Source of the DNA: Sulfuricurvum sp. PD_MW2
Lineage (GTDB): Bacteria; Campylobacterota; Campylobacteria; Campylobacterales; Sulfurimonadaceae
Length of the DNA: 64,000 nt
Assembly (NCBI RefSeq): GCF_002633015.1
Contig: NZ_NSIU01000005.1
Span: 1-64,000, forward strand
Reading direction: 5' to 3'
Shown: positions 6,921 through 41,195 of the stretch, piece by piece
How the letters are laid out: every line of letters begins with the position of its first letter
How positions within the stretch are numbered: position 1 is the stretch's first letter
Made by a program: the position numbers and the translations under genes
The notes under the pieces: generated by a model
The model's input: the letters and a program-made list of their open reading frames with translations, nothing else
What the model was told of the DNA's origin: nothing
The model's database searches: none

Positions 6921-7262
6921 TTACTCCATTTCCAAGGTCATTAAATACATCTCTTCACCATCGATTACTTTGACATCCAAACTCTCACATGCAGGGCATT
7001 TGTAATAGATCTCCTCCAAAGTAGTTTGCACCCCACACTCTTTACACTCGATCACCAGCGGCTGGACATTCATCACAAAATCTGCTCCGTCACACACCGT
7101 TTTTTCTTTGAACGTATTAAATGCAATTTCAAGCAAATGGGGCTCAACACCGGACATTTTTCCGATTTTAACCACTATTTTTTTCACCGATTCGGCTTCA
7201 TTTTGCACTGCGATATCTTCGCATTGCGTTAATAACGCTTGAACAATTGAATACTCATGCAT
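6921..7262 (-). CDS. hypA: Hydrogenase nickel incorporation protein HypA
   Basis: MHEYSIVQALL N-terminus, zinc CxxC pairs (CKEC...CPAC). Confidence 0.95.
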   Translation of the reverse strand: MHEYSIVQALLTQCEDIAVQNEAESVKKIVVKIGKMSGVEPHLLEIAFNTFKEKTVCDGADFVMNVQPLVIECKECGVQTTLEEIYYKCPACESLDVKVIDGEEMYLMTLEME

Positions 7263-18781: not shown

Positions 18782-19474
18782 ATGAATGATGACGCTCTTT
18801 GTATCTACTGTCAACATACCCTTTATCATCTCAGTGATGGGATGGTGAAATGCTCTGTTTGTAAAAAAAAGTACAGTCCCTCACGCATCCATCAGATTAA
18901 AAATATCATCCATATGTTTTGTTCTGATGAAAATGCACTCTCTGCGTCCAAATCGCTTGATCTGAGCTATATTACGGTAGCAAACTACTACCAAAAACTT
19001 CGGGCGCTGTGTGCAGAGTATTGTGAAGCACAGTATCAGCTCAACCGAACGTCAGACGTCCAATATGAAGAGTATCTCTACATCGAAAAATCGAAACGGC
19101 ATAACAAAACAGCTATCTTCGATTCCCATAATTTTCTCACGTTTGCCTACGGTCATAAAGTTTATACGTTGCTCATGCCTTCATTGGGAATTTTCAAACA
19201 GCAGTTTTTGGCAGATAATCTCGAAGAGGTGTATTATAAAGAGTTTTCAAAATTTATGCGAACGAGCAAAATTATCAAGATATCGGAATACGACAACGTT
19301 ATCGTACAGTTTTGGCATTATTTTGAACAGTTTATTACTACCTTTAAAGGTGTCAGTTCAGAACATTTCCCCTATTATCTCAAAGAGGCCGAATTCAAAT
19401 TCAATACCCCTATTGAGAAGCGCTCAACGATTTTGGAAACGCTCTATTTTCGTCCTAGCGACTCGGGTATTTAA
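18782..19474 (+). CDS. IS1595-like transposase-derived zinc-ribbon protein, probably domesticated
   Basis: CIYC...CSVC zinc ribbon; HTH-like LSYITVANYYQKLRALC; FWHYFEQFITTFKGVSSEHFPYYLKEAEFKFN matches IS1595 C-terminal pattern; catalytic positions look altered. Confidence 0.65.
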   Translation: MNDDALCIYCQHTLYHLSDGMVKCSVCKKKYSPSRIHQIKNIIHMFCSDENALSASKSLDLSYITVANYYQKLRALCAEYCEAQYQLNRTSDVQYEEYLYIEKSKRHNKTAIFDSHNFLTFAYGHKVYTLLMPSLGIFKQQFLADNLEEVYYKEFSKFMRTSKIIKISEYDNVIVQFWHYFEQFITTFKGVSSEHFPYYLKEAEFKFNTPIEKRSTILETLYFRPSDSGI

Positions 19475-19985
19475 ACTCTTCAATAATGTCATATAAACTT
19501 TTTTGGAATTCGTTTTGTTTAGAACTGATATTTATAGTTTTTAAGTAGTTAATAACTGTATTTATATAAGCATTAAAATGGTCGTGAAGGGTTTCACTCA
19601 ACCCCATATGAAATGTAATGCTTTTAGGGATTATACCGATAACGTTGGATTCCGGCAGAGGATGTCCCATGAGTTCGATCATATCCAAACACTGCATCAC
19701 CCCAACCTCATGCGCGCCCCCGCTGTTCAATCCATAGCCGCTTAGTTCATATGATGGGATGTTATAGATGCTCCCCGCATCATCGTCGAGATTGATCGTA
19801 TCGAGAATGACGATCCGATCATTTTCTAAAAACAGATTGAGAAGGTTGATCCCCTCCACCCCTCCGTTGATAATCTGAATTTCAGGACTAAACGTATAAT
19901 TGGCATTTAGATACGCACAGGCGTAAATTCCGATCCCGTCATCCTCTTCGAGTACATTTCCTACGCCCAAAACAACAATCGACAT
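19455..19985 (-). CDS. hydD: Hydrogenase maturation protease (HyaD/HybD/HydD family)
   Basis: LGVGNVLEEDDGIG, IVILDT, GGAHEVGVMQ: all three metal-ligand regions present. Confidence 0.88.
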   Translation of the reverse strand: MSIVVLGVGNVLEEDDGIGIYACAYLNANYTFSPEIQIINGGVEGINLLNLFLENDRIVILDTINLDDDAGSIYNIPSYELSGYGLNSGGAHEVGVMQCLDMIELMGHPLPESNVIGIIPKSITFHMGLSETLHDHFNAYINTVINYLKTINISSKQNEFQKSLYDIIEEFKYPSR

Positions 19986-20542
19986 TAAAACCCTTTAGCG
20001 TGTTCGATACTTGGATTCGCAAATTGTTCGATAATCTCATCCAAACTCATGATCTCAGCTTTTTGCTTTGCAGCCACACCGCATTTTTCAAGCTCTTCTG
20101 CAATGATCACTATGTATCTTTCCCAATGTGAACGCAATGCAGGGGTCACGTCGACACAAACGCTTATGATATCTTCGGGAACAATGCTGATCATCGTCGT
20201 TTGCGCGCAATGTGATGCCATCGAACAGATTTGAAGCATCTCGGTAATCTCTACTTCATTCGCTGTTTTTTTGATACCTTGATTTGCTATCAATTCATCT
20301 CCGCTCATCACTTGTATGGTTCCGATCGCTAATGAATCATCCGAACTCGTATTGACAATGATAACGTGTTCATACTCTTGCAAGAGCGGCATCAGCAAAA
20401 ATCCCAGCGTTCCCCCATCGACAATATCCAATGCAGGTTCATACGTAAAATTTTCTTTGAAGTATTTGCCGGCATACAATCCGATCCCCTCATCCATAAA
20501 AAATGCATTTCCTGAACCGATCAATGCTACTTTTGCGTTCAT
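19985..20542 (-). CDS. Hydrogenase maturation protease-like protein with altered metal-ligand positions
   Basis: IGSGNAFFMDEGIGLYAGKY N-terminal motif; VNTSS and ANEVEI at positions normally Asp and His. Confidence 0.8.
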   Translation of the reverse strand: MNAKVALIGSGNAFFMDEGIGLYAGKYFKENFTYEPALDIVDGGTLGFLLMPLLQEYEHVIIVNTSSDDSLAIGTIQVMSGDELIANQGIKKTANEVEITEMLQICSMASHCAQTTMISIVPEDIISVCVDVTPALRSHWERYIVIIAEELEKCGVAAKQKAEIMSLDEIIEQFANPSIEHAKGF

Positions 20543-24863: not shown

Positions 24864-25574
24864 TTAGTTTGCTGAATCGTCTTTGACGAATTTAGAACCA
24901 CCGATAACAATCGCAATATCTGCTTCTTTCCAGAAAATAGTTCTCCAAACTTGGTAGTAAATATGAAATACTACCCAGCACAAGATAAACCACATTGTCA
25001 TATGGTGAGCGATACGAACATCCATCAATGTCCCGCCACATACCGGAATCGTCCAATCTGTCACCAGATGAAGCATCCACGGCCACCAAGTACCGATTGA
25101 GCTCATCCCTGATTCCAATCCATGTACATACATTTGCAATCCGGTCAACAACATCCATGCAAGAAGCAAATGGAAAATCGTGAAATAAACCGTGTTAAAG
25201 CTATCAGCATGCGATGAATCAAACTCTTTTTTACGGTTTAACGTCAAAAGATTAACGACAACCGCTTTGAATTCTGCAATATTTTTTCCATTTGGAATAA
25301 CTTTTTTATACGGTTTTTCAAAACGGCTGAAAAAATAAAGATACGCAATAATTACCGACGTTACATCGAATAAAATTGCAATGATAAAGTGCCCGTAACG
25401 GTTCCACGCCATTACATATTTATCGACTGCACCATCAGCAATAAAGCTCTGATAGTACGGATGTCCGATATAAAGTCCCGTTATCACCGCGCCTACCATA
25501 CAAATTGCGTTCACCCAGTGGATGATACGCATTGCGGGTGTCATACGTTTGACTTGTTTGTACCCCTGTTTCAT
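24864..25574 (-). CDS. hydC: Ni/Fe-hydrogenase b-type cytochrome subunit
   Basis: Four TM segments, MRIIHWVNAICM and HHMTMWFILCWVVFHIYY heme-ligand regions. Confidence 0.95.
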   Translation of the reverse strand: MKQGYKQVKRMTPAMRIIHWVNAICMVGAVITGLYIGHPYYQSFIADGAVDKYVMAWNRYGHFIIAILFDVTSVIIAYLYFFSRFEKPYKKVIPNGKNIAEFKAVVVNLLTLNRKKEFDSSHADSFNTVYFTIFHLLLAWMLLTGLQMYVHGLESGMSSIGTWWPWMLHLVTDWTIPVCGGTLMDVRIAHHMTMWFILCWVVFHIYYQVWRTIFWKEADIAIVIGGSKFVKDDSAN

Positions 25575-25584
25575 ATTTAGCTCC

Positions 25585-27360
25585 TTAGATACTGCAAGAA
25601 GTATCTACTTTGTAAACAGCAAGCTCTTTACCTTTTGTATCGACAACGTGAACCGCACACGCGATACATGGGTCAAAACTATGAATAGTACGGATAATTT
25701 CCAACGGTTGTTCAGGGTTTGCAACTTTAGTCCCGATCAAACTTGCTTCATACGCACCAAGACGATTTTTATGATCGCGAGGAGCCGCATTCCATGTGGA
25801 AGGAACGATTGCTTGATAGTTTGCTACTTTTCCTTCTTCGATACGTACCCAGTGACCAAGTGCTCCGCGTGGAGCTTCTGCCATACCACGACCTTTTGCA
25901 CTCACACTGACTTTATCAAAATCAAACTCAGTCCATGTTGATTTATCACCTGCAAGAACGTTTGCAGTCAACTCATCAATCCACTCAACCATGACATCTG
26001 CCATCAAGTTTGTTTCAATAGCACGCGCTGCTGTACGTCCAACGGTACTGAAAAGAACAGCGACTGGCAATTTACCGCGCTCCAAGAATTCCGTAACGTA
26101 TTTAGTAATACGTTTGTCTTTTGCTGCAACACCGATAACCATACGTGCCAACGGCCCGACTTCAACACGGGTGTCATTGTACAACGGTGATTTAATCCAG
26201 CTGTATTTCTCTTTTGTTTTAAGGTATGCATTACCGTCTTCACGGCGATCAAGCCCTGTATATTCAGGAATCGTTTGACCTTCATACGGATGAAGAGGTT
26301 TGTCACCTTTGTACCATGAGTGAGTAACGTCTTCTGCGATTTTCTCTTGATCCAACGGAACAACTTTAGAGATATCTCCGCCAAGGACAACCCCGCTTGG
26401 GAAAAGAAGCGCTGATTTATAGAATCCGGTATCATCAAGACGGAAATCACCGTAACTCATGAAGTTAAGCAATCCGCCGCCAGTTCCACCGACACCTTTG
26501 CCACCCATCAATTCAGTGAATGTCGCTTTTGAATCGGTTGCTTCACCGGCATACATTGTTCCAGCCATGTAAACGTCCGGAAGATACGCTTCTTTAACAA
26601 ATTTGCGGCCTGCAAGCAAGAGAGATTTGAACAATGCCAAACGGGCAGGATTTTGGATGTCTTGAACACACGTTACACCACCAACAACGATTGATTGTGG
26701 ATGTGGGTTTTTACCACCGAAAATTGCTTGCATTTTTGCCATATCACGTTGAATATCCAACGCTTGCAAATAGTGTGCAACACCGATAAGGTTTTGTTCC
26801 GGTGTCAATTTGTAATGCGGGTTACCCCAGTATCCGTTTCCGAAAATACCAAGACGACCTTGTTTAACGAATTTCGCTACGCGATCTTGAATCGCTTTAA
26901 ATTCGCTTTCACCGTCAATATACGGGTTTTCTCCAGCAACACTTGCCCATTTGCGCGCTTCTGCCGCTGTTTTAGCCGGATCTGCAGAAAGTGCTGAAAC
27001 AACATCAACGAAATCAAGTGCATGCAAGTGATAAAAGTGAACCACGTGGTCATGCATGTACAACGCACCTTGGATAAGGTTACGAACGATACGTGCATTT
27101 TTTGGAATCGTGATATCAAATGCATCTTCAACCGCTTCGATTGAACGTTGATAGTGAGTACCGGTACATACACCACAAATACGCATTGCTAACAATCCGC
27201 AGTCACGTGGATCACGCCCTTGTAAAATGGTTTCAATCCCACGGAACATCGTCGAAGCACTGTATGCGTCTACAATCGTATTGTTCTCATCAATAACCGC
27301 TTCAATACGTAAATGCCCTTCAATACGGGTAATTGGGTCAACTACAATGTGTTTACTCAT
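25585..27360 (-). CDS. hydB: [NiFe] hydrogenase large subunit
   Basis: RICGVCTGTHYQ and DPCIACAVH plus 20-residue C-terminal tail. Confidence 0.98.
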   Translation of the reverse strand: MSKHIVVDPITRIEGHLRIEAVIDENNTIVDAYSASTMFRGIETILQGRDPRDCGLLAMRICGVCTGTHYQRSIEAVEDAFDITIPKNARIVRNLIQGALYMHDHVVHFYHLHALDFVDVVSALSADPAKTAAEARKWASVAGENPYIDGESEFKAIQDRVAKFVKQGRLGIFGNGYWGNPHYKLTPEQNLIGVAHYLQALDIQRDMAKMQAIFGGKNPHPQSIVVGGVTCVQDIQNPARLALFKSLLLAGRKFVKEAYLPDVYMAGTMYAGEATDSKATFTELMGGKGVGGTGGGLLNFMSYGDFRLDDTGFYKSALLFPSGVVLGGDISKVVPLDQEKIAEDVTHSWYKGDKPLHPYEGQTIPEYTGLDRREDGNAYLKTKEKYSWIKSPLYNDTRVEVGPLARMVIGVAAKDKRITKYVTEFLERGKLPVAVLFSTVGRTAARAIETNLMADVMVEWIDELTANVLAGDKSTWTEFDFDKVSVSAKGRGMAEAPRGALGHWVRIEEGKVANYQAIVPSTWNAAPRDHKNRLGAYEASLIGTKVANPEQPLEIIRTIHSFDPCIACAVHVVDTKGKELAVYKVDTSCSI

Positions 27361-28591
27361 GGCTCTCTCCTGAATTTTCTCGTTTACCTGCTACTGTGCT
27401 GGCTGCTGCATGAATGGCGATACCGATGCCGGCTGCTGTCAACATACCCAAACCGAATTCATCAACAGTTTTTTCAACTCCGCCTGTCGGCGCTTTGATT
27501 TTCGCATCAGCCATTGGGCGCTCATATGCATATTTATCCCAGAAATCTGGTTCTGAACAACCGATACAACCACGACCGACTCCGATTGGCCAGTTCACTG
27601 CTTCGTTATAACGAACGATTGAACAGTTATTGAATGTCATAGGACCTTTACATCCCATTTTGTAGAGACAGAAGTTATTTTGTGCTCCTACATCTCCCCA
27701 CTCTTCTACGTACTCACCTGCATCGAAGTGTGCACGACGCTCACAGTTATCATGGATACGATAACCGAACGCGAATTTAGGGCGAAGAAGTGAATCAAGC
27801 TCAGGAACTTGACCTGTCAATACGTAATGCAAGATTACACCAACCATATTTGCCGGGTTAGCCGGACATGCTGGGATATTGATAAGTGGTTTGTTTTTAA
27901 TAACATCCATTACACCGACCGCACCGGTTGGGTTCGGAGCTGCAGCTGGGATACCACCGAACGTAGCACATGCTCCAACAGCAACAACAGCAGCAGCATT
28001 TTCTGCACAGCGTACGAGATGGTCATGGAAAGTTTCACCTTTCGCACCGATTGTTCCGTATTGTCCGTCCATACCCATTGGGATAGAACCTTCAACGAAA
28101 AGAAGATATTTGCCTTTGAAGTGCTCCATAGCTTCATCAAGTTGTTTTTCTGCTTGATGTCCTGATGCCGCTTGAAGTGTCTCATGGTATTCAAGAGAGA
28201 TAATGTCAAGAACGATTTCATCGATTTTTGGTCCATCAGCACGTAGAAGCGCTTCAGAGTTACCGGCACAATCTTGAAGTTCTAGCCAAACAACTGGAGC
28301 ACGATTCATCATCACCGCAGCGTCCGCAACTAGCGGTGTAAACATAGGAGGTAACATCAACATTGCTGTTGTAGCACTCGCCCATTTCATAAACTCACGT
28401 CGATCAATTCCGTTCTCTTCTAAAAGATCGGTAAAGTCTAGCTTGTTAGCTGGCGTAAGAGAACGCATCTCATTTAAACGCGCCTCACATTTTTCGAAAA
28501 GCTCTTGATAGTATGTGTCGCCCTTGTTCGTTTCGACACGAGAACTCTTCGAAGTGAACAGTTTTTTAACCGTTTCAATTCTATCGGACAT
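27353..28591 (-). CDS. hydA: [NiFe] hydrogenase small subunit, Tat-exported
   Basis: RREFMKWASATTAMLMLPP Tat signal; DCAGNSE, GACATFGG, PACPANP, distal/medial cluster motifs. Confidence 0.97.
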   Translation of the reverse strand: MSDRIETVKKLFTSKSSRVETNKGDTYYQELFEKCEARLNEMRSLTPANKLDFTDLLEENGIDRREFMKWASATTAMLMLPPMFTPLVADAAVMMNRAPVVWLELQDCAGNSEALLRADGPKIDEIVLDIISLEYHETLQAASGHQAEKQLDEAMEHFKGKYLLFVEGSIPMGMDGQYGTIGAKGETFHDHLVRCAENAAAVVAVGACATFGGIPAAAPNPTGAVGVMDVIKNKPLINIPACPANPANMVGVILHYVLTGQVPELDSLLRPKFAFGYRIHDNCERRAHFDAGEYVEEWGDVGAQNNFCLYKMGCKGPMTFNNCSIVRYNEAVNWPIGVGRGCIGCSEPDFWDKYAYERPMADAKIKAPTGGVEKTVDEFGLGMLTAAGIGIAIHAAASTVAGKRENSGESHE

Positions 28592-28830: not shown

Positions 28831-30126
28831 TTAATGTGTCGTACACACCGAGCAAACATCGAAAGTTCGAAATATCAAAGAGGCTTTTTCTATGGACTCT
28901 GCACCTATCATTGCTTTTTGAGCCACCCCTAGATTTGAGTATTGTCCGTTCCCCAAGTTCCATTGTGTGGGTGTGATCATCGAATAGGTTACTATTTTAC
29001 CCTTTTCGACTTTTGCAGTATGAATCAGTGAGCCACGAGGGGCTTCAACAATTCCGATCCCTGTACCGCTGATATTCTCAATAGACAGAGGAGCTACAAA
29101 TGAAGGTTCCGAAAGATCCAAAGTATTCAGAAGATTGCGTATTTTTCGGACACAATATACAATCTCATCCATACGTGCATTTAATCGGATCAGAGAACTG
29201 TCTCCGTGTTTTCGATACAAAGTTGTCATTCCCGAACGTTGTGTGAGAATAGCTCGCGCCAATGGTCCTGTTTCGTAAAATAAATTATTATACAGGGCAT
29301 TTTTCGCGTATGTTTTTCCACCTTTTTCAAATGTGTTTGAGCTGTCTTCGCTAATGAAAAAAAGATCGGCAATCGACATTTCATTCTCACTCATCGCTAA
29401 ACGTTCATCTCCCAGCATCAAAAAACGTTGATGGCTTTTTCCCGTCTCTAGCAGATTGAATCGTTCGAAATATCGTAACAGTTTTCCGAAATCACCCGAT
29501 AGCTGTAATGATGTATCGTCGTGAAAAGTAGATTCAAAGTTCTCAAATGAGCACCCCAATATCTCATCCGTAACAAATTTTTCCACATCGCTCACAATTT
29601 TTAGACCCTGCATCACCTCGATGTAGGTCGGATCGCATGTCACTCCACCCGGCAAAGCATAAGAGCTATGAGGCCATTGACCGCTAAAAAGGGCACATAG
29701 TTGATTGATCTGTGTCGTGATATAGAGTGCCTTCAAAGCAACCGGCGGCTCTTCATTAGCCAATTTTCCAGCTTCGTGCAACATCACCAAATAGAGCCAT
29801 TTGATATGGTTCTGAAGCAATTCGCACAAACGTGTAATCTCGCGAATGCCCTTGGCTTTTGAAGAAAGGGTTATTTTTGCCCCGGTATTGATATAGATGT
29901 TCTCCAACATCCGAACAGCTGCAATCAAATGGGAGTGTCCGCAAATACCGCAAACCCGTGGAGCAATAACTAATGCATCGAGGGCATTGCGTCCTTCTAA
30001 AATTGCTTCCATCCCTCGAAAATGCAAAAAACGGATATCGGCTTCTTGTACGGTACCGTCTGTATCGGTATTAAATTCTAAAACGGCTTCTCCCTCGATC
30101 CGCTCGATCAGTTCATGCGTTATCAT
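28831..30126 (-). CDS. [NiFe] hydrogenase large subunit, HupV/regulatory-like, no C-terminal tail
   Basis: RVCGICGHSH and C-terminus ...FRTFDVCSVCTTH ending at the final ligand-motif His. Confidence 0.9.
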   Translation of the reverse strand: MITHELIERIEGEAVLEFNTDTDGTVQEADIRFLHFRGMEAILEGRNALDALVIAPRVCGICGHSHLIAAVRMLENIYINTGAKITLSSKAKGIREITRLCELLQNHIKWLYLVMLHEAGKLANEEPPVALKALYITTQINQLCALFSGQWPHSSYALPGGVTCDPTYIEVMQGLKIVSDVEKFVTDEILGCSFENFESTFHDDTSLQLSGDFGKLLRYFERFNLLETGKSHQRFLMLGDERLAMSENEMSIADLFFISEDSSNTFEKGGKTYAKNALYNNLFYETGPLARAILTQRSGMTTLYRKHGDSSLIRLNARMDEIVYCVRKIRNLLNTLDLSEPSFVAPLSIENISGTGIGIVEAPRGSLIHTAKVEKGKIVTYSMITPTQWNLGNGQYSNLGVAQKAMIGAESIEKASLIFRTFDVCSVCTTH

Positions 30127-31009
30127 CGATCAGTTTCCCTTCCAGCCGTTTGATATGAAACGATTTTGCAGCACCCGCGAGAGCCAAGTAACTCCGTTTC
30201 GGAACACCTAATGGCATCTCTGCCGGAATCGACATATAGGTTTTTGTGCTAAAAAGATCTTTCTTAGGAAATGAGGGTTCCGTACACCCGACGCACGGCA
30301 TTCCGATACGTGTTTTCGAACTCACATCGTTCCACAGGATTTTATTGCAGCTACCGTGAGTAAAAGGACCTTGACACCCTTGGGCATAAAACAAACACCC
30401 CTCTTTCGTTCCAAAATGCTCACTGTCCACCTTCCACTCAAAATACTCATTTCGAAGACATCCGTTATGAACAAGATAGCCATAAAGTTCTTTTGGACGA
30501 CGATATTCATCAAGAACAATATTTTTTCCCTGAACGATCATATCGATAACAAAGCTAAGCCATTTTGGATGAGTAGGACAGCCGCTTAATGTTATAACTT
30601 TTTCTCGATAATCTTTTAAGAGTCCGTGTTCCTCTTCTTTATCAAAAAGTATTCCTCGAATATTTTGAGGATCATTTTCTTTAAAAATTCCACCGAAACT
30701 CGCACAGCTTCCTAATGCGATAATATGTTTTGTTTTATAGGCAAGTGTAAGCAGCAATAACTCCATAGGCATCCCCGCACGCTCAAAATCGGCTTTATAC
30801 GCCCCCTCAAAAATCAAAATATCCGATTGCGGAAGTTTTTTGACCAATTCTTTGAGCGTTTTTTTACACGGCAAGAGGGGATGGTGGATAAATTCTATAG
30901 TCTCAAGAAGATTTCCAAGCGAAGAATCATTTAAAAAGGAGTGATTATTACCGTTGCAGGTGATCCCCTGCAGCCAGATCACACGAAGTTTAGCGGGCTT
31001 TGAGGGCAT
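30113..31009 (-). CDS. [NiFe] hydrogenase small subunit, HupU-like, no signal peptide
   Basis: VIWLQGITCNGNNH, GSCASFGG, GCPTHP, C-terminal MPLGVPKRSYLALAGAAKSF. Start placed at MPSKPAKLR (ORF track begins at 31039). Confidence 0.9.
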   Translation of the reverse strand: MPSKPAKLRVIWLQGITCNGNNHSFLNDSSLGNLLETIEFIHHPLLPCKKTLKELVKKLPQSDILIFEGAYKADFERAGMPMELLLLTLAYKTKHIIALGSCASFGGIFKENDPQNIRGILFDKEEEHGLLKDYREKVITLSGCPTHPKWLSFVIDMIVQGKNIVLDEYRRPKELYGYLVHNGCLRNEYFEWKVDSEHFGTKEGCLFYAQGCQGPFTHGSCNKILWNDVSSKTRIGMPCVGCTEPSFPKKDLFSTKTYMSIPAEMPLGVPKRSYLALAGAAKSFHIKRLEGKLIDDNA

Positions 31010-31583
31010 TGTAGATATTTTCGGCGATCGTATGTTCATACGTTTCTAACGATTTTGGAAGAATCTGTTCACCATTTAAAAAGACCATTCCGCCCAAATA
31101 TCCCATAAAAAGGCCAAATGCACTAAAAAAGTCTTGATCTTTCAGTTCACCGGATCTTACCCCTTCTTCAAAAAAGATCATCAACTCCGTTACAAAAGCT
31201 GATACACAAATCATACCGGTACAACAGTTTTGAAAAACTTCACGGTTAGAGAGATAGACCCGTAAAAAATACTCGATTGTTTCAGGACGCTCTTTTGCAA
31301 TTCGAAAATACATATGGACGATTGCTTCAATCTTCTCTTGGGTACTGATAGGACTTTCATTGATCTTGCGGATCTCTTCTCCTAAAATATTAGCAATGTA
31401 GAGAATGAGATCTTTGGCCAATATTTCTTTAGATTTAAAATAATTGTATAAATTGCCGACACTCATACCGATTTTTTCAGCAATGGTGGGCATCGTGGTT
31501 TGATAAAATCCCTCTTTGGAAAACAATTCCAATGCTTTTGTCATAATAGAAATTTTTCGTTCTTCTTTTGTCGGACGTGCCAA
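30990..31583 (-). CDS. TetR/AcrR-family transcriptional regulator
   Basis: TKALELFSKEGFYQTTMPTIAEKIGMSVGNLYNYFKSKEIL HTH. Confidence 0.95.
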   Translation of the reverse strand: MARPTKEERKISIMTKALELFSKEGFYQTTMPTIAEKIGMSVGNLYNYFKSKEILAKDLILYIANILGEEIRKINESPISTQEKIEAIVHMYFRIAKERPETIEYFLRVYLSNREVFQNCCTGMICVSAFVTELMIFFEEGVRSGELKDQDFFSAFGLFMGYLGGMVFLNGEQILPKSLETYEHTIAENIYNALKAR

Positions 31584-31616: not shown

Positions 31617-33308
31617 TTATAGCGAATATGTATTCATTATTTTATAATGTGATAACTCTTTTTTAGTGGCATCAATGACATGAACGGCACAGGCAAGACA
31701 CGGATCAAACGAATGTACGATCCGTAATACCTCTAAAGGGGCTGATGGATCACTGAGTTGAAGGCCGATCAGCGCCTCTTCGTAAGCACCTCTATCTTGG
31801 TTGATCCCTTTGGGAGATGCATTCCATGTGGTGGGTACAACCGCCTGATAATTAGCAATTTTTGATTCTTCGATACGGACGAAATGGCCTAATACACCGC
31901 GAGGAACTTCAAAGATACCCGCACCTCTCGCTTCGGACGGCAACTCTTCAAATACATATTTGGTCCATGTGGTCTCATCGTAATATTTTATATTCTCGAT
32001 CAGATCGCTCATAGTGTCAAACAAATAATCGCAACAGATTTGTGCTTCAACCGCACGCGCCGCATTTCGTCCCAATCCGGTAGAAAAGTCCAACAGCTCC
32101 ATGTCCGAACGCTTCATAAACCGTTCCATGTATGGACGGATAATCGCAGAGTGTTTGACATATCCCATTATCATCCGCGCCAACGGGCCTACTTCCATCA
32201 CATCACCATCATAGCGCGGTGCTTTTACCCATGTGTATTTACCCTCGGTTTTGAGTGAACCATCATCATTGAGATCGGTATAAAACGGTGTTGTATCTCC
32301 CTCATACGGAGAAAGAGGCGTATCATTTTCATACCATGAACGGGAAGCCTCCTCTGTAATCTTGGTCGGATCGAAAGGCTCGACATGCTCAAAATTATGC
32401 CCCCGAATCACACCGTTTTCAAAAAGCTGCCGGTTTTTCCCAAATCGGTATCCTCCGCAGCACATGAAGTTTCCGACGGTGCGTCCCTCTCCGGCTTTGA
32501 TGGAGTCACGATAGGCATTGATGAGCATCACCATATCCGGAATATAGGCACGTTCGATAAAATCACGGACCTCTTTGATAATGAACAAAAAGTCGTTTAG
32601 CCGCTGAGGATTAAGCATATCCGCAACACTCGTAACACCGCCAACGACCAAGTTCTGAGGGTGGGGAGTTTTGCCTGCAAAAATAGCTACCGCTTTAGAA
32701 AGCTCACGCTGTATCCGAAGCGCTTCAAGATAGTGATTCATATGGATGAGATTTTCTTCAGGACTGAAACGGTATGTACTGTGCCCCCAATAGCCATTTG
32801 TAAACAGACCAAGCCGCCCCGCTTTGACAAACCCTTCAAGTTTCTCTTTGACCGATTCCAGATGCCCTTGTGAATTACGGTAGGGGTGTTGCGACCACGA
32901 TTCTGCATCATGCGAGGCTTTCGCACAATCTGCATTTAAAGCACTTGTGATATCGACAAAATCAAGCGAATGAAGATGATAGTAGTGGACAATGTGATCT
33001 TGAACAAATAAAGAGAGGGTCACAAGATTTCGGATGATTTCGGCATTATCCGGAATTTCAATCCCGTATGCCGCTTCCACAGCACTAATCGACGCACGAT
33101 AATGGACATTTGTACATACTCCGCAAATGCGTTGCGCTATCAATCCCGAATCACGAGGATCACGCCCTTTTAAGATGGTCTCGATTCCTCGAAACAATTG
33201 ACCGGAAGCCCACGCTTCTGTGATAATGTTGTTTTCATCGACTTCCACTTCAAGGCGCAAATGACCCTCGATACGGGTAATCGGATCGATGATGATTTTT
33301 TTAGTCAT
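31617..33308 (-). CDS. [NiFe] hydrogenase large subunit (partner of FAD-fused small subunit)
   Basis: RICGVCTNVHYR and DPCLACAVH plus 20-residue C-terminal tail; 8-bp overlap with upstream fusion gene. Confidence 0.97.
   Translation of the reverse strand: MTKKIIIDPITRIEGHLRLEVEVDENNIITEAWASGQLFRGIETILKGRDPRDSGLIAQRICGVCTNVHYRASISAVEAAYGIEIPDNAEIIRNLVTLSLFVQDHIVHYYHLHSLDFVDITSALNADCAKASHDAESWSQHPYRNSQGHLESVKEKLEGFVKAGRLGLFTNGYWGHSTYRFSPEENLIHMNHYLEALRIQRELSKAVAIFAGKTPHPQNLVVGGVTSVADMLNPQRLNDFLFIIKEVRDFIERAYIPDMVMLINAYRDSIKAGEGRTVGNFMCCGGYRFGKNRQLFENGVIRGHNFEHVEPFDPTKITEEASRSWYENDTPLSPYEGDTTPFYTDLNDDGSLKTEGKYTWVKAPRYDGDVMEVGPLARMIMGYVKHSAIIRPYMERFMKRSDMELLDFSTGLGRNAARAVEAQICCDYLFDTMSDLIENIKYYDETTWTKYVFEELPSEARGAGIFEVPRGVLGHFVRIEESKIANYQAVVPTTWNASPKGINQDRGAYEEALIGLQLSDPSAPLEVLRIVHSFDPCLACAVHVIDATKKELSHYKIMNTYSL
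31623..31636. promoter_or_regulatory. Candidate TetR operator upstream of tetR-hupUV-like operon
   Basis: GAATA-TG-TATTC palindrome about 40 bp upstream of the tetR start, same core as at 28688. Confidence 0.4.
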
Positions 33309-35730
33309 TAGCTTTTTCCTCTAGTTTACGATTATTGGCATAACGGTCAAATGCAATTTTCCCCTGTCCGCACCCGAAACATCCGTGCCCTGCTTGCACC
33401 GGCCAACTCGTCCCCTCATTGAATTTCACCAACGAACAGTTAAGATCGGCATAGGGTCCTTTACAGCCCATCTCAAAAAGGCACCATCCCTTCTTCGCCC
33501 CCTCATCACCCCATTCACGGACAAATTCTTCCGCATCATAGTGACCGCGGCGTTCACAGTTGTCATGCACACGAAAACCATATGCCCATTCAGGACGATT
33601 ATGCGCATCGAGTTTTGGAAATTCATCGAACATGATGTAATGAAGTAAAGTACCCACGATATTAATCGGATTGGTCGGACATCCCGGAAGATTGATAATA
33701 TCCTCTCTACCCAAGGCTTCCGATACACCTACCGCACCTGTCGGATTAGGCTCAGCCGCAACCACACCTCCATCATAGGCACACGAACCTACGGCAATAA
33801 TTGCTGCAGCTTTTTTAGAAACTCGGCGTAACAGTTCCACTCCGGTCTCCCCTTTGGGGCCAATTCGTAAAAATTTGCCATCCATCCCCAGCGGTACGGC
33901 TCCCTCAACGATCAAAAGAAACTTTTCGCTGTCATTATGGAGGATGCTTTCCAATGCCGATTCCGATTGATCTCCCGATGCCGCCATCAAAAGCTCATGA
34001 TAATCTAATGAGATGTACTTGAGGATTAGATCGTCTACTTTTGGATGAGAGGTTTTGATAAATGCTTCCGAATTACCCGTACAATCGGAAAGCTCAAGCC
34101 AAATAATCGGTATTTTATTGAGCTGTACAACACTCTCCCCCACAACCTCTTCAAACTGCGGGTGTAGATGCATTGATGCAGTTATCATCGAAACCCATCG
34201 ATTAAACTCACGGCTCATCTCATATGATTCCAACGCTTCATGAAAATTTTCACTGCTCAACTGATTTTTAGGATGGAGACGATTGTACTTTTCGATACGC
34301 GCGCGTACTTTTTCGAGTTCGGCCGCTTGGGCCATAGCTACTTTTTCCGCACGCAATCGCGCTGCTTCAGTCGGATCGACCGGAGTGCTTGAAATAATCG
34401 TACAGATGTCCTGCTTGCACCGTCCGCAGACACGTCCCGCTTTTGTATGCTCTTTGAGTTCACCAAACGAGGTGATCGCATTTTCTTTGATGATGTCGAT
34501 CAATTCTTGTTCATGCACCCCTTCACAACTGCATACCAATCGCCCCGATTCAGACATCAACCGGTTGGAATACAAATAAGCCGCATCGATCACAGAATCA
34601 TGTTCCATCAGTTGCTTGATAGCGAGAAGATCGATATTCGTATTTATCCCGATAAATCGCTTTAGTCGATCGTTCTTAACGATATACTGATCAATCCGAT
34701 CTTTATGTGCGATCAGAATCGTTTCATTATCACTATCTTTTGGATTAAAATCGGTCGCACTCACATCTGCGAACAAAAACGATCCTACTTTGAGCCCGTC
34801 AATCGCTACCTCTTTTCTAAATACCCTATCTTGATCTCCCAAAAGATTCGCAATCGCAATATCCGCTTGCAACGTACACTCTTTCACCCTTCCGGCGATA
34901 AACCCTCCATGTCGCACTTCTGCCGCTTCACCGACACAATAAATATCCGGATCAGAAGTTTGCATCCGATCATCCACTAAAATGCCCTTCGCACATTCAA
35001 GTGTATGGCGTGCAAAATCGATATTGGGATCAATCCCAACTCCGAAAATAAGAAACGGATTTTTAATTTCCCGTTGTTTGGTAATCACTTTCGTGATACG
35101 GCCATCTACAATCTCTTTATCTATGATTTCGTCATTAAATTGTATTTGTACCCGTTTATCGACTTCAAAAATACCTCTGATCAACTCTAATGCTTCACGG
35201 CTGATCACTTCCGAATAGAGATAATTTTTACGTACCAATAACGTAATACTTTTGGGGGATGAACTACGCATTAGGGTATCAAGCAACTCCAGTGCGATAG
35301 GACCAGCACCGACGATCACAACATTTTTATCGTTAATCCCTTGAGCAATCCGTTCACAATCTCTTTGACTTCTAAAAGTTGCTGCATTACTCAGTTCTGA
35401 AATATCAAACAGCGTTTTTGGAATCGATCCTGTTGCGATAATCAATTTATCGTAATGGAATGCGGCATGTTGGCTAAAAATCCGTTTTTCTTCGGGGGCA
35501 ATAGATACGATTTTTTGATTGAGTTCCAGTTTTACTTTTGGATGAAGTTCCAATTCTATCGAATCGGTACACGTGCAATCTTCTACCAGCTTGCATAAAT
35601 GGATACGGTCATAAGGGGGATGTTTCTCATCTGAAACAATCAGTACTTCTAGCTGAGGGGATTTTTGGATAAGCGTATTAGCAATATAGACAGCGGCGAT
35701 CCCACCTCCTACGATTACAATACGCATCAT
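33301..35730 (-). CDS. Fusion: FAD/NAD-dependent oxidoreductase, BFD-like [2Fe-2S] domain, [NiFe] hydrogenase small subunit
   Basis: IVGGGIAAVYIAN and IVGAGPIALELLD dinucleotide motifs; CSC...CGRC BFD motif; PIIWLELSDCTGNSE, GSCAYDGG, GCPTNP, CFGC hydrogenase small-subunit motifs. Start at one of two internal Mets. Confidence 0.95.
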   Translation of the reverse strand: MMRIVIVGGGIAAVYIANTLIQKSPQLEVLIVSDEKHPPYDRIHLCKLVEDCTCTDSIELELHPKVKLELNQKIVSIAPEEKRIFSQHAAFHYDKLIIATGSIPKTLFDISELSNAATFRSQRDCERIAQGINDKNVVIVGAGPIALELLDTLMRSSSPKSITLLVRKNYLYSEVISREALELIRGIFEVDKRVQIQFNDEIIDKEIVDGRITKVITKQREIKNPFLIFGVGIDPNIDFARHTLECAKGILVDDRMQTSDPDIYCVGEAAEVRHGGFIAGRVKECTLQADIAIANLLGDQDRVFRKEVAIDGLKVGSFLFADVSATDFNPKDSDNETILIAHKDRIDQYIVKNDRLKRFIGINTNIDLLAIKQLMEHDSVIDAAYLYSNRLMSESGRLVCSCEGVHEQELIDIIKENAITSFGELKEHTKAGRVCGRCKQDICTIISSTPVDPTEAARLRAEKVAMAQAAELEKVRARIEKYNRLHPKNQLSSENFHEALESYEMSREFNRWVSMITASMHLHPQFEEVVGESVVQLNKIPIIWLELSDCTGNSEAFIKTSHPKVDDLILKYISLDYHELLMAASGDQSESALESILHNDSEKFLLIVEGAVPLGMDGKFLRIGPKGETGVELLRRVSKKAAAIIAVGSCAYDGGVVAAEPNPTGAVGVSEALGREDIINLPGCPTNPINIVGTLLHYIMFDEFPKLDAHNRPEWAYGFRVHDNCERRGHYDAEEFVREWGDEGAKKGWCLFEMGCKGPYADLNCSLVKFNEGTSWPVQAGHGCFGCGQGKIAFDRYANNRKLEEKAND

Positions 35731-35820
35731 CTTACTCCTCATTCTTGTTTATGGATTTTACCCGATTTTTTGATTGAATGAGGAGGATACAAGAGAAGTT
35801 ATTGCGTCGTAAGCAATCCC

Positions 35821-37989
35821 CTATTCTAATATTTGCGGCTTACCGGTGAAATACCCTTGAGAGTAGTTGATTCCGATTTTTTTGACAATTGTATACGTTT
35901 CTTCATCGCTGACAAATTCAGCAATCGTTTTCGTCCCGATTTTATGCGCAAAATCTGTGATCGTCTCGACAATCACATGGTGCCTTGGATTGGAATGAAT
36001 CCCGCGGATCAAGGAACCGTCAATTTTTATATAATCAACATTCAACTTCAAAATATTTTCAAAATTAGAATACCCTGTTCCAAAATCATCAATAGCTATT
36101 TTTGATCCCAAAGCTTTTACTTCAGAGATAAATTTTGCGACCTCATCATAGTTCTCAATCCCTTCGGATTCTAAAATTTCAAATACAATTTGAGACGCAG
36201 TACCGGTATGGATAATCGTATCTATGATTTTTTGCTTTGTCTTTTCATTCACAATATCACTCACCGATAAATTGATCGAAAATTCTTCTTTGCGTTTTTC
36301 AAACAGTGTACATGCTTGATCGATCACTTCCGCGGTGATTTGAGGATATAGCTTCGTTTTTTTAGCAATAGGCAAAAATTCCATAGGCGAAATCGTATTT
36401 CCATGTTCGTCCAACATCCGTACCAATGTTTCATACTTATGAACTTTTCCAGTTTCGATATTAATAATTGGTTGATAGTGACAAAAGATACGTTTTTCAT
36501 TTAATGCTTTTCGAATGGCATCTTCCATCGCCATATTGTTACGATAGGTCTCTTCTATATTTTCATTTTCAATATAGCGTGCGATATGAATATTTTGCTC
36601 TCTTGCTTTGTTGAGTGCGATATCGGCTTGTGTGAGCAGCTTCGTTGTTCCTCCGATAGATGCCCCTGCCGTCAATCGGACATTAAAACTTCGATGATTA
36701 ACATAAAAAATACTTTTTTTGACAGCTGATAGTATCTTTTCAATTTTATGCCGAAGTTCATCCCATCTAATTTCTTCATATTCTAAAATAGCGAATTCAT
36801 CCCCACCGAGACGGTATGGAAAATAATTCATCGTATTAAACCACTGCCCGAGCTGATGCAATATCGCATCTCCGGTATCAATTCCATAAAAATCGTTAAT
36901 CTCTTTAAAATCGTCAATATTGAAAATAACACATACTTTCGGTTTTTTCTCTTCAATATCCAAGATCATCTTCTGCCGATTCGGAAGGCCTGTGAGTTGA
37001 TCGTAATATGCCAATTTCAGAGCATTCTCTTGACTTTCACGCAATGGACTTAGATCACTGAAAACAGCCAAATAATTCTCTATCTCTCCAGTACTGTTTA
37101 AAACTGCACTAATACTGATCCATTCTGGATATACCTCTCCATTGGCGCGTTTGTTCCATATTTCACCACTCCAATGTTTTTTTTCTAATAATGTTGCCCA
37201 CATTGCACTATAAAAATTTTGATCATGGTGCCCTGATGCAAAAATCTTCGGATTTTTTCCTATGACCTCTTCGGCACTATATCCGAGTGTTTCAATAAAT
37301 GCGTTATTCACTTTTACGATATTATTGTTTTTATCAGTAATCATCATGCCATCTGTTGCGTATTTAACAGCAGTACCCAATAGTTCCAGCTCACGCTGAT
37401 TATTATCGATCTGCGCTTCATATTCTGAACGTTTCAAGACGACATTGACGATAAACGCACATATTTCCAGCAAACGTTTGTGGAAATCAGAAGGCGCACG
37501 ATGTTCGAATGAAGAGAGGGCAAAACTTCCTACAGCACTTTTCATACTATTGCGGATAGGCATTGACCAACATGAACACAAATTAAAATCATAGGCGATA
37601 TGACGTATATCGGACCATCGCTCATCGGTTTTTGTATCTGCTACAAACTGAGGTTCATTCCTAAATACAGCATTTCCGCATGAACCACCACCACTGCCTG
37701 GTTTGAGTCCTGCCAAAGCCTTATGCCCTACTTCAGGGATTGAAGGAGCTGATATTACATTCATAAGCCCCGTTTTAGAATCCAATAGCATGATTGAGGC
37801 TACCGAATTTGGAAGCATTTTTTCTGCCAATTGACACAATCGTTCTAAAACAATTTTTTCATTATTCCCTACCGCAAGCAATTCAAAAATATTTTGCTGA
37901 ATATCCAGTATCTTGCTGTATTCTAGAGGTGTCAAAATGACTTCTTGCTCTAATGCATCAAATGCAATACAGCTATTCGATTCATTCAT
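35821..37989 (-). CDS. GAF-PAS-GGDEF-EAL signalling protein
   Basis: GAF N-terminus, PAS (VNNAFIETLGYSAEEVIGKN), GGDEF (RLGGDEFAI), EAL-like (YETLVRML, DDFGTGYS). Confidence 0.93.
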   Translation of the reverse strand: MNESNSCIAFDALEQEVILTPLEYSKILDIQQNIFELLAVGNNEKIVLERLCQLAEKMLPNSVASIMLLDSKTGLMNVISAPSIPEVGHKALAGLKPGSGGGSCGNAVFRNEPQFVADTKTDERWSDIRHIAYDFNLCSCWSMPIRNSMKSAVGSFALSSFEHRAPSDFHKRLLEICAFIVNVVLKRSEYEAQIDNNQRELELLGTAVKYATDGMMITDKNNNIVKVNNAFIETLGYSAEEVIGKNPKIFASGHHDQNFYSAMWATLLEKKHWSGEIWNKRANGEVYPEWISISAVLNSTGEIENYLAVFSDLSPLRESQENALKLAYYDQLTGLPNRQKMILDIEEKKPKVCVIFNIDDFKEINDFYGIDTGDAILHQLGQWFNTMNYFPYRLGGDEFAILEYEEIRWDELRHKIEKILSAVKKSIFYVNHRSFNVRLTAGASIGGTTKLLTQADIALNKAREQNIHIARYIENENIEETYRNNMAMEDAIRKALNEKRIFCHYQPIINIETGKVHKYETLVRMLDEHGNTISPMEFLPIAKKTKLYPQITAEVIDQACTLFEKRKEEFSINLSVSDIVNEKTKQKIIDTIIHTGTASQIVFEILESEGIENYDEVAKFISEVKALGSKIAIDDFGTGYSNFENILKLNVDYIKIDGSLIRGIHSNPRHHVIVETITDFAHKIGTKTIAEFVSDEETYTIVKKIGINYSQGYFTGKPQILE

Positions 37990-38112
37990 CCAATATCCCT
38001 TATTATTTCTATAATAATATATATTATATAGGATAATACTAACACCGTAAATCTAAATATCTCTTTAGAAAACCGATGTTTTACATACACAAAAATGGAT
38101 GGATTGAAATAG

Positions 38113-38130
38113 TAGATGGTGGCGGTGGGG
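38113..38130. repeat. tRNA-Met 3'-end-like direct repeat (candidate att remnant)
   Basis: TAGATGGTGGCGGTGGGG versus TAGATGGTGGCGGGGGGG at the tRNA-Met 3' end (41838). Confidence 0.5.
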
Positions 38131-38427
38131 AAAATAGCCCAAATAACTTTCTGAGAAACCTTAAAAACAGTGAACCTCCTGTTTGCGAACTTTGAAACTC
38201 ATAAACAATCATGACCTTAGGTATAACAAATAACATCAAATATTTTTGCGTTTTGCAAACATATGTATATTCCAAAAATAGAATGATCAATTCCATTTTT
38301 TTTGTTCCAAAAATCCTAAAAGTTTATTGCATTTTTCATTTTGACATTTTTGAACACTTTGTGAAACGCTGAAAGCTGTTACCTGTAACCTGCATTCATA
38401 AAACTAGGGATTTAGTTACAAAACACG

Positions 38428-38901
38428 CTATACATTTGGTTGACTTTCGGCTATAGATTGATCATCAAGATACAATTGAATTTGGTCCGCACAGGCTTTG
38501 ACATCTTGTAGTATTTGCTTCTCCCAAAAGCGTAATACCTTCCAGCCTTCATCTTTCAGAACCTGATTTACTTTTCTATCACGTTCAATATTACGTTTCA
38601 TCTTTTCTTCCCAAAAAGATGCATTCGTTTTGAACGTTTTTCCTTCATTCAGGTACTCATACCCATGCCAAAATTCACTGTCACAAAAAACTGCAATTTT
38701 TTTACCTTTGAAGACAATGTCTGGTTTTCCATATACGGTCTTATCATTTTTCCTGTATCTTATTCCACGTGCCCAAAGTTCTTTACGCAGTGTAATTTCA
38801 ATTTTTGTATCTTGCCCCCGAATCCTCGACATATTTTCTGATCTTGACATAGATTTATTTTTTTTCATAGTGATACTGTACTTTTTTATGGCATTTTGCA
38901 A
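38428..38901 (-). CDS. vsr: Very short patch repair endonuclease (Vsr)
   Basis: SRSENMSRIRGQDTKIEITLRKELWARGIRYRKN, KPDIVFKGKKIAVFCDSEFWHG. Confidence 0.95.
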   Translation of the reverse strand: MQNAIKKYSITMKKNKSMSRSENMSRIRGQDTKIEITLRKELWARGIRYRKNDKTVYGKPDIVFKGKKIAVFCDSEFWHGYEYLNEGKTFKTNASFWEEKMKRNIERDRKVNQVLKDEGWKVLRFWEKQILQDVKACADQIQLYLDDQSIAESQPNV

Positions 38902-38970
38902 TAGTATAAATAAACCAAAGTGATAAGAGGGTAAAATACATAATTATTCTTTAGAAAAAAGGTCAACTGG

Positions 38971-39939
38971 ATGTTTACGTTCATAGATTTATTTGCAGGT
39001 ATCGGAGGGATCCGTTTAGCATGTGAACGAAATGGTGGACAATGTGTATTCAGTAGTGAATGGGATCCACACTCTCAAAAGACGTATCACGCTAATTTTG
39101 GTGAAACACCGCATGGGGATATCACTAAAATTGAGGCGAAAGACATACCATCGCATGACTTTCTTAATGCAGGGTTTCCTTGCCAACCCTTTAGCACTAT
39201 TGGAAAAAGGGAAGGATTTGAGCACAAAACACAAGGGACCCTTTTCTTTGATGTGGCCCGTATTTTGAAACACCATAAAACTAAAATGATCTTATTGGAA
39301 AATGTTCCTGGACTTGTTACTCATGAAAACGGTAATACTTTCTCGGTTATCCGAGATGTCCTTGAAAATGAATTGGGTTATGTGACATTTCATCAGGTCA
39401 TCAATGCAGCAGAGTATGGGGTACCACAGGAGCGTAAACGGATATACATTGTTGGTTTTCTAAAAGAAGCCTATGGGGAAGATATCAAGTTTGAATGGCC
39501 TGAACCCGATACAGAGGATGTATTTATAAGTGACTTTCTCGAAAAACATCCAACTGGATACGGGATAAGTAAACATCTTCAGGATACATATCTTTTCAAA
39601 AAAGAGGATGGAAGACCACAGCTGATTGATAAGTCCAGTAAGATAAAAGTCAAAACACTGGTTGCTTCGTACCACAAAATCCAGCGTTTGACAGGCACAT
39701 TTGTCAAAGATGGGGAAACAGGTGTGAGGCTTTTGAGCGAAAATGAGTGCAAAGCTATTATGGGCTTTCCAAGAGATTACAAGATTCCAGTTAGTAGGAC
39801 ACAGATGTATCGTCAGTTTGGTAACTCAGTTGCAGTTCCTGTGGTTGAAAAAATTATTAAACAGATCTTGAAAGCTGCTGATTTTCCTTTTCAAGCCCCC
39901 ATGAACGAGACGAAGCAATCATCCCTTTTCGATATTTGA
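38971..39939 (+). CDS. DNA (cytosine-5) methyltransferase
   Basis: FIDLFAGIGGIRLA, GFPCQPFS, ENVPGL, QFGNSVAVPV motifs. Confidence 0.97.
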   Translation: MFTFIDLFAGIGGIRLACERNGGQCVFSSEWDPHSQKTYHANFGETPHGDITKIEAKDIPSHDFLNAGFPCQPFSTIGKREGFEHKTQGTLFFDVARILKHHKTKMILLENVPGLVTHENGNTFSVIRDVLENELGYVTFHQVINAAEYGVPQERKRIYIVGFLKEAYGEDIKFEWPEPDTEDVFISDFLEKHPTGYGISKHLQDTYLFKKEDGRPQLIDKSSKIKVKTLVASYHKIQRLTGTFVKDGETGVRLLSENECKAIMGFPRDYKIPVSRTQMYRQFGNSVAVPVVEKIIKQILKAADFPFQAPMNETKQSSLFDI

Positions 39940-39953
39940 TTTTTGCCCCGTAC

Positions 39954-41195
39954 TTACAGGATTATAGGCATTTTGAATTGAATTCTTAGCCCTCTTTGTT
40001 TTGAAGGGTAAGTCCAGCTGAATGGTATCCCGTAATTCAGTTTCGCTTGTTCACTAATCTTCTTGATATATGAAGGATAGTCCACACATACTTCTGTTGT
40101 ATCGGTCACTATTAAAAGATAATTTGAAACCTGTTTGGCAGGTTCTATAAGATTTCCGATGTCATGTTTTCCAGTCAAAGCCCATTCTGTCAACTTCACT
40201 TTGTATGGATTCAGAAGTTCCTCGAATTCAGACTTGCTATAACCCGCTGGTAAATTTGCTTCAAATGCCTCGTATGAAGGATAAGCCTGAAATAATTTGA
40301 AATAATCTGCGAGCTTGGTGTTTTCAATGTCCAACACACGGATATAATCGCTTACCTTGTAGTCATGGCAAGATACTACGGTTTTATTTGTACATTTTAC
40401 CGAAATAGTTTCTGTACAAGTTCCTTCTGTGGTTACTATTGCGATTATAATATCAGTTTTTGCATTCCCACCGCTCAAAAGCTTAGGTATTGTATCTGTA
40501 GCTTGAATAGCAATTATATTTTCTTTATCAACATTGCCTGCACAAATCTGATTGATGATTTTGTTGAATAATGGTTCTGCGCTCGTATTACTTTTGTAAG
40601 ACTTTAAATTTGTTGTATTGTTTAAAATCTTGACAATTTCTTTTTCAAGTTTATTTCCCCGTTTTCCAAAATAGCTTCCATCTTTCTCTACTATATCTGT
40701 TTCGGTATCCACTGTTTCATCGGTTTCAATTGATGCACTATGGTTTTCCAGAAAGCTATAAAGCTCACTGACAGTTAGAAGATATGTGGTAGGTGAATAT
40801 GTAATACCATCCTTTACCCTTTGACGGAAGTTGATGAAGGTTTGGTTGTCTTCTAACTCTGAATCTGGATAAAGGGCTATTGCTGCAATAACATCGGATG
40901 AAATATATGAATGCTTTAAAACTCCTTCAATGTCATACGCCTGACCTTTGAAACGGTCATTTCTGAAGGAAGTGCTACTATTGATAATGATGTATTTATT
41001 ATCTAGGGTTTCAAGAAGAAAATTTACCAGATATTGTCTCGGATAGGAATATCCTTTATGATTGTAATTTACATTTTTCTGGAAATTTAGAATAATGCTC
41101 TTATCCACCATCTCTTTGAATGTGTTTTCAAGAAAAACTTGTAATGCATCACCTGATAGATTTTTAAGCCTATTACTTTCTGATTGGATATCCAC
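39954..41195 (-). CDS. Putative type II restriction endonuclease (possibly MspI-like)
   Basis: Convergent neighbour of the C5-MTase; TETISVKCTNKTVVSCHDY and FSWTYPSKQRGLRIQFKMPI resemble MspI-family restriction enzymes; not verified by search. Confidence 0.6.
   Translation of the reverse strand: MDIQSESNRLKNLSGDALQVFLENTFKEMVDKSIILNFQKNVNYNHKGYSYPRQYLVNFLLETLDNKYIIINSSTSFRNDRFKGQAYDIEGVLKHSYISSDVIAAIALYPDSELEDNQTFINFRQRVKDGITYSPTTYLLTVSELYSFLENHSASIETDETVDTETDIVEKDGSYFGKRGNKLEKEIVKILNNTTNLKSYKSNTSAEPLFNKIINQICAGNVDKENIIAIQATDTIPKLLSGGNAKTDIIIAIVTTEGTCTETISVKCTNKTVVSCHDYKVSDYIRVLDIENTKLADYFKLFQAYPSYEAFEANLPAGYSKSEFEELLNPYKVKLTEWALTGKHDIGNLIEPAKQVSNYLLIVTDTTEVCVDYPSYIKKISEQAKLNYGIPFSWTYPSKQRGLRIQFKMPIIL

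Follow-up and report, generated by a model that had tools for sequence, protein, structure and literature searches.

Where Campylobacterota that use the reverse tricarboxylic acid (rTCA) cycle and lack NuoE/F obtain their NAD(P)H has been an open question. The Nautilia genome paper proposed a partial complex I that works by reverse electron flow (PMC2628731), and an NAD+-reducing Hox hydrogenase has been called unique to one Arcobacter (PMC4584990). One gene pair that may bear on it is found in a 64,000-nucleotide stretch of DNA from Sulfuricurvum sp. PD_MW2 (the window), in which the small subunit of a [NiFe] hydrogenase is fused to a flavin-dependent reductase and is encoded next to its large subunit. 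We consider it slightly better than an even chance that this pair forms a soluble cytoplasmic [NiFe] hydrogenase that takes electrons from H2 and passes them to a pyridine nucleotide, NADP+ being the likeliest. If so, a direct H2:NADP+ enzyme would answer the NAD(P)H question for genomes with the fused gene and would account for a hydrogenase cluster suspected to be broken. It would also show a route from an exported to a cytosolic enzyme via a buried signal peptide and put a two-gene hydrogenase on offer for NADPH regeneration.

Architecture of the Fused Gene

The fused gene is an uninterrupted open reading frame of 813 codons on the minus strand (33301..35742). An AGGAG ribosome-binding site (35735..35739, minus strand) lies 4 nt 5' of the ATG at 35730; the first residue of homologues corresponds to the second ATG, at 35727. 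Because of this spacing and of the homologous starts, the real start is likely 35730, as the initial annotation had it, or 35727, rather than the first ATG (35742). The three-part protein of ~810 amino acids (aa) read from the letters alone was borne out by searches with Pfam and TIGR00391, which returned, in order, Pyr_redox_2 (PF07992, aa 6-274, 3.9e-39), Fer2_BFD (PF04324, aa 402-450, 3.0e-11), Oxidored_q6 (aa 554-701, 3.3e-28) and NiFe_hyd_SSU_C (aa 721-795, 5.5e-26), as well as a hydA (TIGR00391) match of 369 bits (cutoff 179.5).

On the minus strand the gene thus begins with a double Rossmann domain of the NirB/BphA4 type for flavin adenine dinucleotide (FAD) and NAD(P) (aa 6-300, 34843..35727), assigned by PF07992, conservation and a fold match to putidaredoxin reductase (PdR)/BphA4. 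It continues with the C-terminal domain of the reductase (aa 301-395, 34558..34842), which is covered by ~400-residue Foldseek alignments to BphA4/PdR and modelled with a pLDDT (predicted local distance difference test) mostly of 77-93, and with a BFD-type [2Fe-2S] domain (aa 402-450, 34393..34539). A linker, with a stretch derived from a Tat (twin-arginine translocation) leader inside it (aa 473-541, 34120..34326), leads to the small subunit (aa 542-813, 33304..34119), which is of the complete group 1 [NiFe] type from aa 542 on, as seen in Pfam and in the ligand alignment, and has no C-terminal membrane anchor. The partner large subunit (563 aa, 31617..33308, minus strand) matches NiFeSe_Hases over its full length (2.2e-200), carries the motifs RICGVCTNVH and DPCLACAVH and a 20-residue C-terminal extension and, as annotated initially, overlaps the fused gene by 8 bp at 33301-33308 (ATGACTAA).

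The order of FAD/NAD domain and BFD domain in front of a catalytic module is that of the assimilatory nitrite reductase NirB (TIGR02374, 1.8e-39), but the score of 135.8 is far under the NirB cutoff of 578. No sulfite/nitrite reductase siroheme domain was found in the fused protein by Pfam, and the hydrogenase small subunit stands in its place.

Conservation and Single Origin of the Fusion

GTDB genomes were scanned with query-derived peptides, whose patterns are specific, so that the scan may have overlooked distant relatives in other phyla. Full-length fused proteins, 56-84% identical and aligning end to end, were found besides the query at 46 of the 54 loci returned. A frameshift or an assembly error joining two genes, which the initial annotation had named as a possible refutation, was rejected since the fusion is conserved in these 46 other proteins. 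The nearest homologues of the window protein are in Sulfuricurvum. All holders are Campylobacterota except four gammaproteobacteria of the Thiomicrospira lineage. The phylum sample contained the fused gene in 40 of 397 genomes, and 33 of the 299 Campylobacterales genomes sampled had it (interrupted in one, G291), with any comparable match in 177. In this complete genome (locus L097, G291:C1), two inserted genes split the fused gene near aa 227-265.

In a tree of 58 sequences, including 25 sampled fused small subunits, the latter formed one clade (support 100/100). The gammaproteobacterial sequences were nested within it (99/100), which points to a transfer from Campylobacterota; for the sister of the fused clade, tatC versus tatN paralogues, support was 90/65. 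The pN/pS values were ~0.06-0.26 across the modules, with dS near saturation, and every module is under strong purifying selection.

A published description of enzyme and acceptor had likewise been listed as a possible refutation. The fused protein has indeed been published (PMC4744846, citing Scott et al., 2006), without an established acceptor. As relayed by Hansen and Perner (2016; PMC4744846) from Scott et al. (2006), Hydrogenovibrio/Thiomicrospira crunogena XCL-2 has an 813-aa small subunit (HynS) with a pyridine nucleotide-disulfide oxidoreductase domain, its operon lacks both a Tat signal and a cytochrome b, and the enzyme was proposed to be cytoplasmic and to react with its redox partner directly. 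Hansen and Perner found the feature also in S. kujiense and others (PMC4744846), the HynS homologues being those of S. kujiense, Sulfurovum AR, S. autotrophica and A. nitrofigilis, and the same cluster is present and transcribed in strain SP-41 (PMC6501319). The window protein is like HynS of XCL-2 and SP-41 in length class, in the fusion of an oxidoreductase to a group 1b subunit and in the lack of Tat signal and cytochrome b partner (PMC4744846, PMC6501319): it has ~810 aa, an N-terminal oxidoreductase, no Tat twin arginines (RR) and no cytochrome b. Such an architecture has been published before; what is added here are the conserved ligands, the decayed Tat leader, the NADP features, the ech linkage and the absence of NuoF/HoxF and of group 3 or 4 hydrogenases from the genome of the window. 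The fossil leader and the ech linkage are not mentioned in PMC4744846 or PMC6501319, nor is the BFD domain (checked for PMC4744846).

Conserved Cluster Ligands

The HynS papers call the cluster sites not conserved, and Hansen and Perner, who saw no activity, offered decay as one possibility (PMC4744846). In contrast, alignment to E. coli-type Hyd-2 and of 47 fused proteins, on which the ligand numbering rests, revealed 11 of the 12 usual small-subunit cluster ligands to be invariant in 47/47. They include C554, C654 and C688 of the proximal cluster, C769, C788 and C791 of the medial cluster and H726, C729, C754 and C760 of the distal cluster. The BFD motif CxC-x32-CxxC (C404, C406, C439, C442) is equally invariant (47/47). 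The fourth proximal position, usually the second proximal Cys, is N557, in a DCAGN motif common to the ordinary 1b paralogue of the window and its relatives. With eleven ligands invariant and the Asn shared by an ordinary 1b enzyme, the view that the clusters are not bound is not supported. Membrane-bound group 1 activity was seen in Sulfurimonas (PMC4584964), on which basis we infer that ordinary 1b paralogues with DCAGN are active.

A Decayed Tat Leader in the Linker

The 1b small subunit of the window is 48% identical to aa 473-807 of the fused protein, its leader included, and has the same proximal Cys-to-Asn replacement. It has a Tat RR, a C-terminal membrane anchor and a cytochrome b, none of which belongs to the fused enzyme. 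Of 33 Tat leaders from 1b small subunits, 32 were matched by a hidden Markov model profile built on linker aa 470-540 alone (best 3.6e-8), as against 0/782 unrelated open reading frames and 0/660 shuffled leaders. In the linker, SREFNRWVSMITASMHLHP occupies the place of RREFMKWASATTAMLMLPP in the 1b paralogue, and the RR position is S510-R511 (34210-34215); RR is retained in 0/47 fused proteins. After this position the mean hydropathy (h-region) is 0.13 in fused proteins versus 1.09 in Tat paralogues, with ranges that do not overlap, and charged or His residues number 3.7 versus 0.1. The tail beyond the medial cluster has 17-32 residues versus 59-69, the membrane anchor being gone.

The linker is, by its sequence, a decayed Tat leader. 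Because this leader is decayed and the C-terminal anchor is lost, the enzyme is evidently a relocated respiratory hydrogenase, whose exported small subunit was captured whole and then stripped of its targeting. The initial annotation had seen no N-terminal export signal, and indeed the leader lies within the linker instead. The soluble cytoplasmic location that it gave the enzyme is supported by the missing RR, the charged h-region and the lost anchor. Nor does a cytochrome b follow: the one at 24864-25574 is part of the separate group 1b membrane-bound hydrogenase operon (24864-28591).

Nucleotide Site and Proposed Electron Path

The nucleotide site GxGPIxxEL is intact, with G145, G147 and E152 invariant in 47/47. 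V170-R171-K172 aligns with E175-T176-Q177 of BphA4, and in the model residues 170-171 come right after the strand that ends at 169. Position 170, equivalent to Glu175 of BphA4, is V, S, A, G or L in the 47 proteins and never Glu. Arg171 (35230-35232) is present in 44 of them, where NADH-specific relatives have Thr/Ala beside a Glu. The BphA4 mutants E175A/T176R/Q177G and E175C/T176R/Q177G appear in PDB titles and were reportedly made to favour NADPH. A preference for NADH goes with Glu175 in BphA4 and with its counterparts (PMC7397466, PMC5031999). The missing NADH-selecting Glu and the prevalence of Arg171 thus suggest that NADP(H) is favoured over NAD, less clearly so for the proteins of loci L036, L052 and L029. 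The pyridine-nucleotide acceptor of the initial annotation is supported, the sequence favouring NADP. Ferredoxin, its alternative as direct acceptor, found no backing, as neither a ferredoxin site nor a bifurcation module turned up; in relatives any reduction of ferredoxin would fall to the Ech enzyme encoded next to it.

Architecture, ligands, lost export features, single origin and ech linkage are seen in the sequences, whereas acceptor, direction and physiological role are what we infer. Electrons would leave the NiFe site of the large subunit via the proximal cluster, run on over the medial and the distal one to the [2Fe-2S] cluster of the BFD domain and finally reach FAD and NADP+. This would be the electron-input arm of NirB run in reverse, with the hydrogenase replacing the siroheme module. 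The enzyme arose once, when a reductase-BFD module captured a Tat-exported group 1b small subunit whose twin arginines and membrane anchor were then lost, and it may supply reductant for biosynthesis. The group 3b/3d NAD(P)-linked hydrogenases (Hox, sulfhydrogenase) would share its proposed reaction and soluble location, but they have separate diaphorase subunits, and the genome of the window has no HoxF/NuoF-type 51K protein.

The window lies on contig 22 of the genome of a Sulfuricurvum-like campylobacterote, which measures 2.26 Mb and is 99.99% complete. No Complex1_51K (PF01512; NuoF/HoxF-type) protein was found in this genome, nor any [NiFe] large subunit beyond the three of the window, nor a group 3 or 4 hydrogenase. 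The fused enzyme therefore seems to be its sole evident direct H2-to-NAD(P) route. Since most Campylobacterota do without it, it is an option, not a necessity. The link to the rTCA cycle drawn initially is compatible with the ATP-citrate lyase present in the genome; it is not general, as the Thiomicrospira-lineage holders are known as Calvin-cycle organisms.

Linkage to ech Genes

Of 48 genomes with the fused gene, 16 have an echABCDEF operon as its close neighbour on the same strand, in three arrangements. In Sulfuricurvum, including genome G474, the fused gene is directly 3' of a complete ech operon (subunits verified by Pfam); the order is fused-large-ech in L059, L060, L103 and L104 and ech-gene-fused in L035/L061. 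At L035/L061, several inserted genes separate the fused gene from its large subunit, with ech on the other side. ech occurs in 22/48 genomes with and 33/266 without the fused gene (Fisher 4e-7; first sample alone, p 0.003), counts that are not independent, the genomes being related to one another and those of the second batch having been chosen among holders of the fused gene. The close placement is the stronger point: in 16 of the 22 ech-bearing genomes ech lies within ~6.5 kb on the same strand, where ~0.06 would be expected. Thiomicrospira-lineage holders have no ech nearby and hyp genes instead. Two upstream genes in L014 ([424], [346]) are, by eye, threonine dehydratase- and Ppx-like housekeeping genes and not parts of the system.

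Where ech is near, Ech would give reduced ferredoxin from H2 and the fused enzyme NADPH, i.e., both reductants of the rTCA cycle. More tentatively, we suggest that a group 1 [NiFe] hydrogenase, a type that is normally respiratory and exported, may have been moved into the cytoplasm and redirected to NADP+. Together with an adjacent Ech it may form an assimilatory H2 module for both rTCA reductants in bacteria without the NADH module of complex I.

Alternative Functions

Several observations weigh against an H2-oxidising, NADP+-reducing enzyme and its coupling to Ech. No biochemical activity is known for the fused type. XCL-2, whose only known hydrogenase is of this type, showed no H2 consumption and no soluble activity (PMC4744846), and in SP-41 hydrogenase activity was confined to the membrane (PMC4744846, PMC6501319). 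The genome of the window has no ech (best match NuoD-like, 29%), so ech is not required by the fused gene, and most Campylobacterales have neither. NADP preference is not universal among fused proteins, as R171 is absent from L036 (Thiomicrorhabdus), L052 (Thiomicrospira) and L029, although present in Hydrogenovibrio L047. The hydrogenase half of the AlphaFold model, which did not include the large subunit, has a pLDDT <50. Finally, the scheme does not account for Cys50 (35593-35595) and Cys289 (34876-34878) of the flavin domain, which are located beside or near the flavin and are invariant in 47/47.

The same enzyme might run in reverse and make H2 at the expense of NAD(P)H. It would then serve as an electron valve or, together with Ech, shuttle electrons from NADPH via H2 to ferredoxin, powered by the proton motive force. 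We regard this as rather unlikely. NirB front ends usually run from NAD(P)H via FAD and BFD to the catalyst, NADPH to H2 is downhill at low H2, and ech genes adjoin the fused gene in 16 genomes; yet the parent enzyme family is of the uptake type, many holders, the genome of the window among them, have no ech, and SP-41 cluster transcripts peak with H2 as the only electron donor (PMC6501319).

Less probable again is an H2-driven sulfur or disulfide reductase, in which the flavin would pass electrons via Cys50 to a thiol, disulfide or sulfane sulfur. Cys50 replaces the Ser of the flavin-contacting PYxRPPLSK motif, the holders are sulfur bacteria, and the fold is similar to NADH peroxidase and coenzyme A-disulfide reductase (CoADR), which have a catalytic Cys beside the flavin. 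However, Cys50 was aligned to ferredoxin-reductase templates and not directly to Cys43 of CoADR, ferredoxin reductases rather than CoADR are the top fold matches, and the NAD-site motif is invariant.

A direct H2:ferredoxin or flavodoxin oxidoreductase, its carrier protein docked by the reductase module, is improbable: although relatives of the fold hand electrons to small iron-sulfur proteins and the rTCA cycle needs reduced ferredoxin, the reaction runs uphill unless bifurcation or ion coupling helps it along (PMC2628731), and the protein has a single flavin, no second acceptor module and an intact NAD(P) site. An inactive relic that lost Tat signal, cytochrome b and proper cluster sites, the possibility taken from Hansen and Perner (2016), is the least probable, for although XCL-2 consumes no H2 in any fraction (PMC4744846) and the gene is interrupted in L097 and apart from the large subunit in L035/L061, the ligands are invariant across 47 proteins with the single non-Cys position shared by an ordinary 1b paralogue, purifying selection is strong and the gene spread to gammaproteobacteria.

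Other Genes of the Window

A TetR gene and a diverged group-2-like pair lie downstream of the fused/large pair, as does the exported 1b hydrogenase, a separate enzyme with a cytochrome b of its own. The TetR-family regulator (30990-31583), kept in several Sulfuricurvum loci, has a 50-bp overlap with the start of the group-2-like small subunit. The group-2-like large subunit (28831-30126) ends in DVCSVCTTH, with Val replacing Pro of the usual DPCxxC, and has no cleavable tail; such a tail is present in two of the three large subunits of the window. Two putative HyaD-type maturation proteases (19985-20542 and 19455-19985, together 19455..20542, minus strand) were assigned from sequence and neighbourhood.

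A diverged second HypF-like protein (640 aa, 22839-24761) adjoins the full HypF, and a similar gene is next to hydrogenase genes in L029, L042, L070 and L103. The hyp cluster contains a HypX/HoxX-like gene (7255-8943), assigned by sequence inspection alone, and a protein with DUF695 and RraB domains (6168-6917) adjoins hypA within the maturation cluster. At 35821-41195, where relatives carry ech, a GGDEF/EAL-type signalling gene is followed by a Vsr/DNA-methyltransferase and putative restriction cluster, which suggests local gene replacement.

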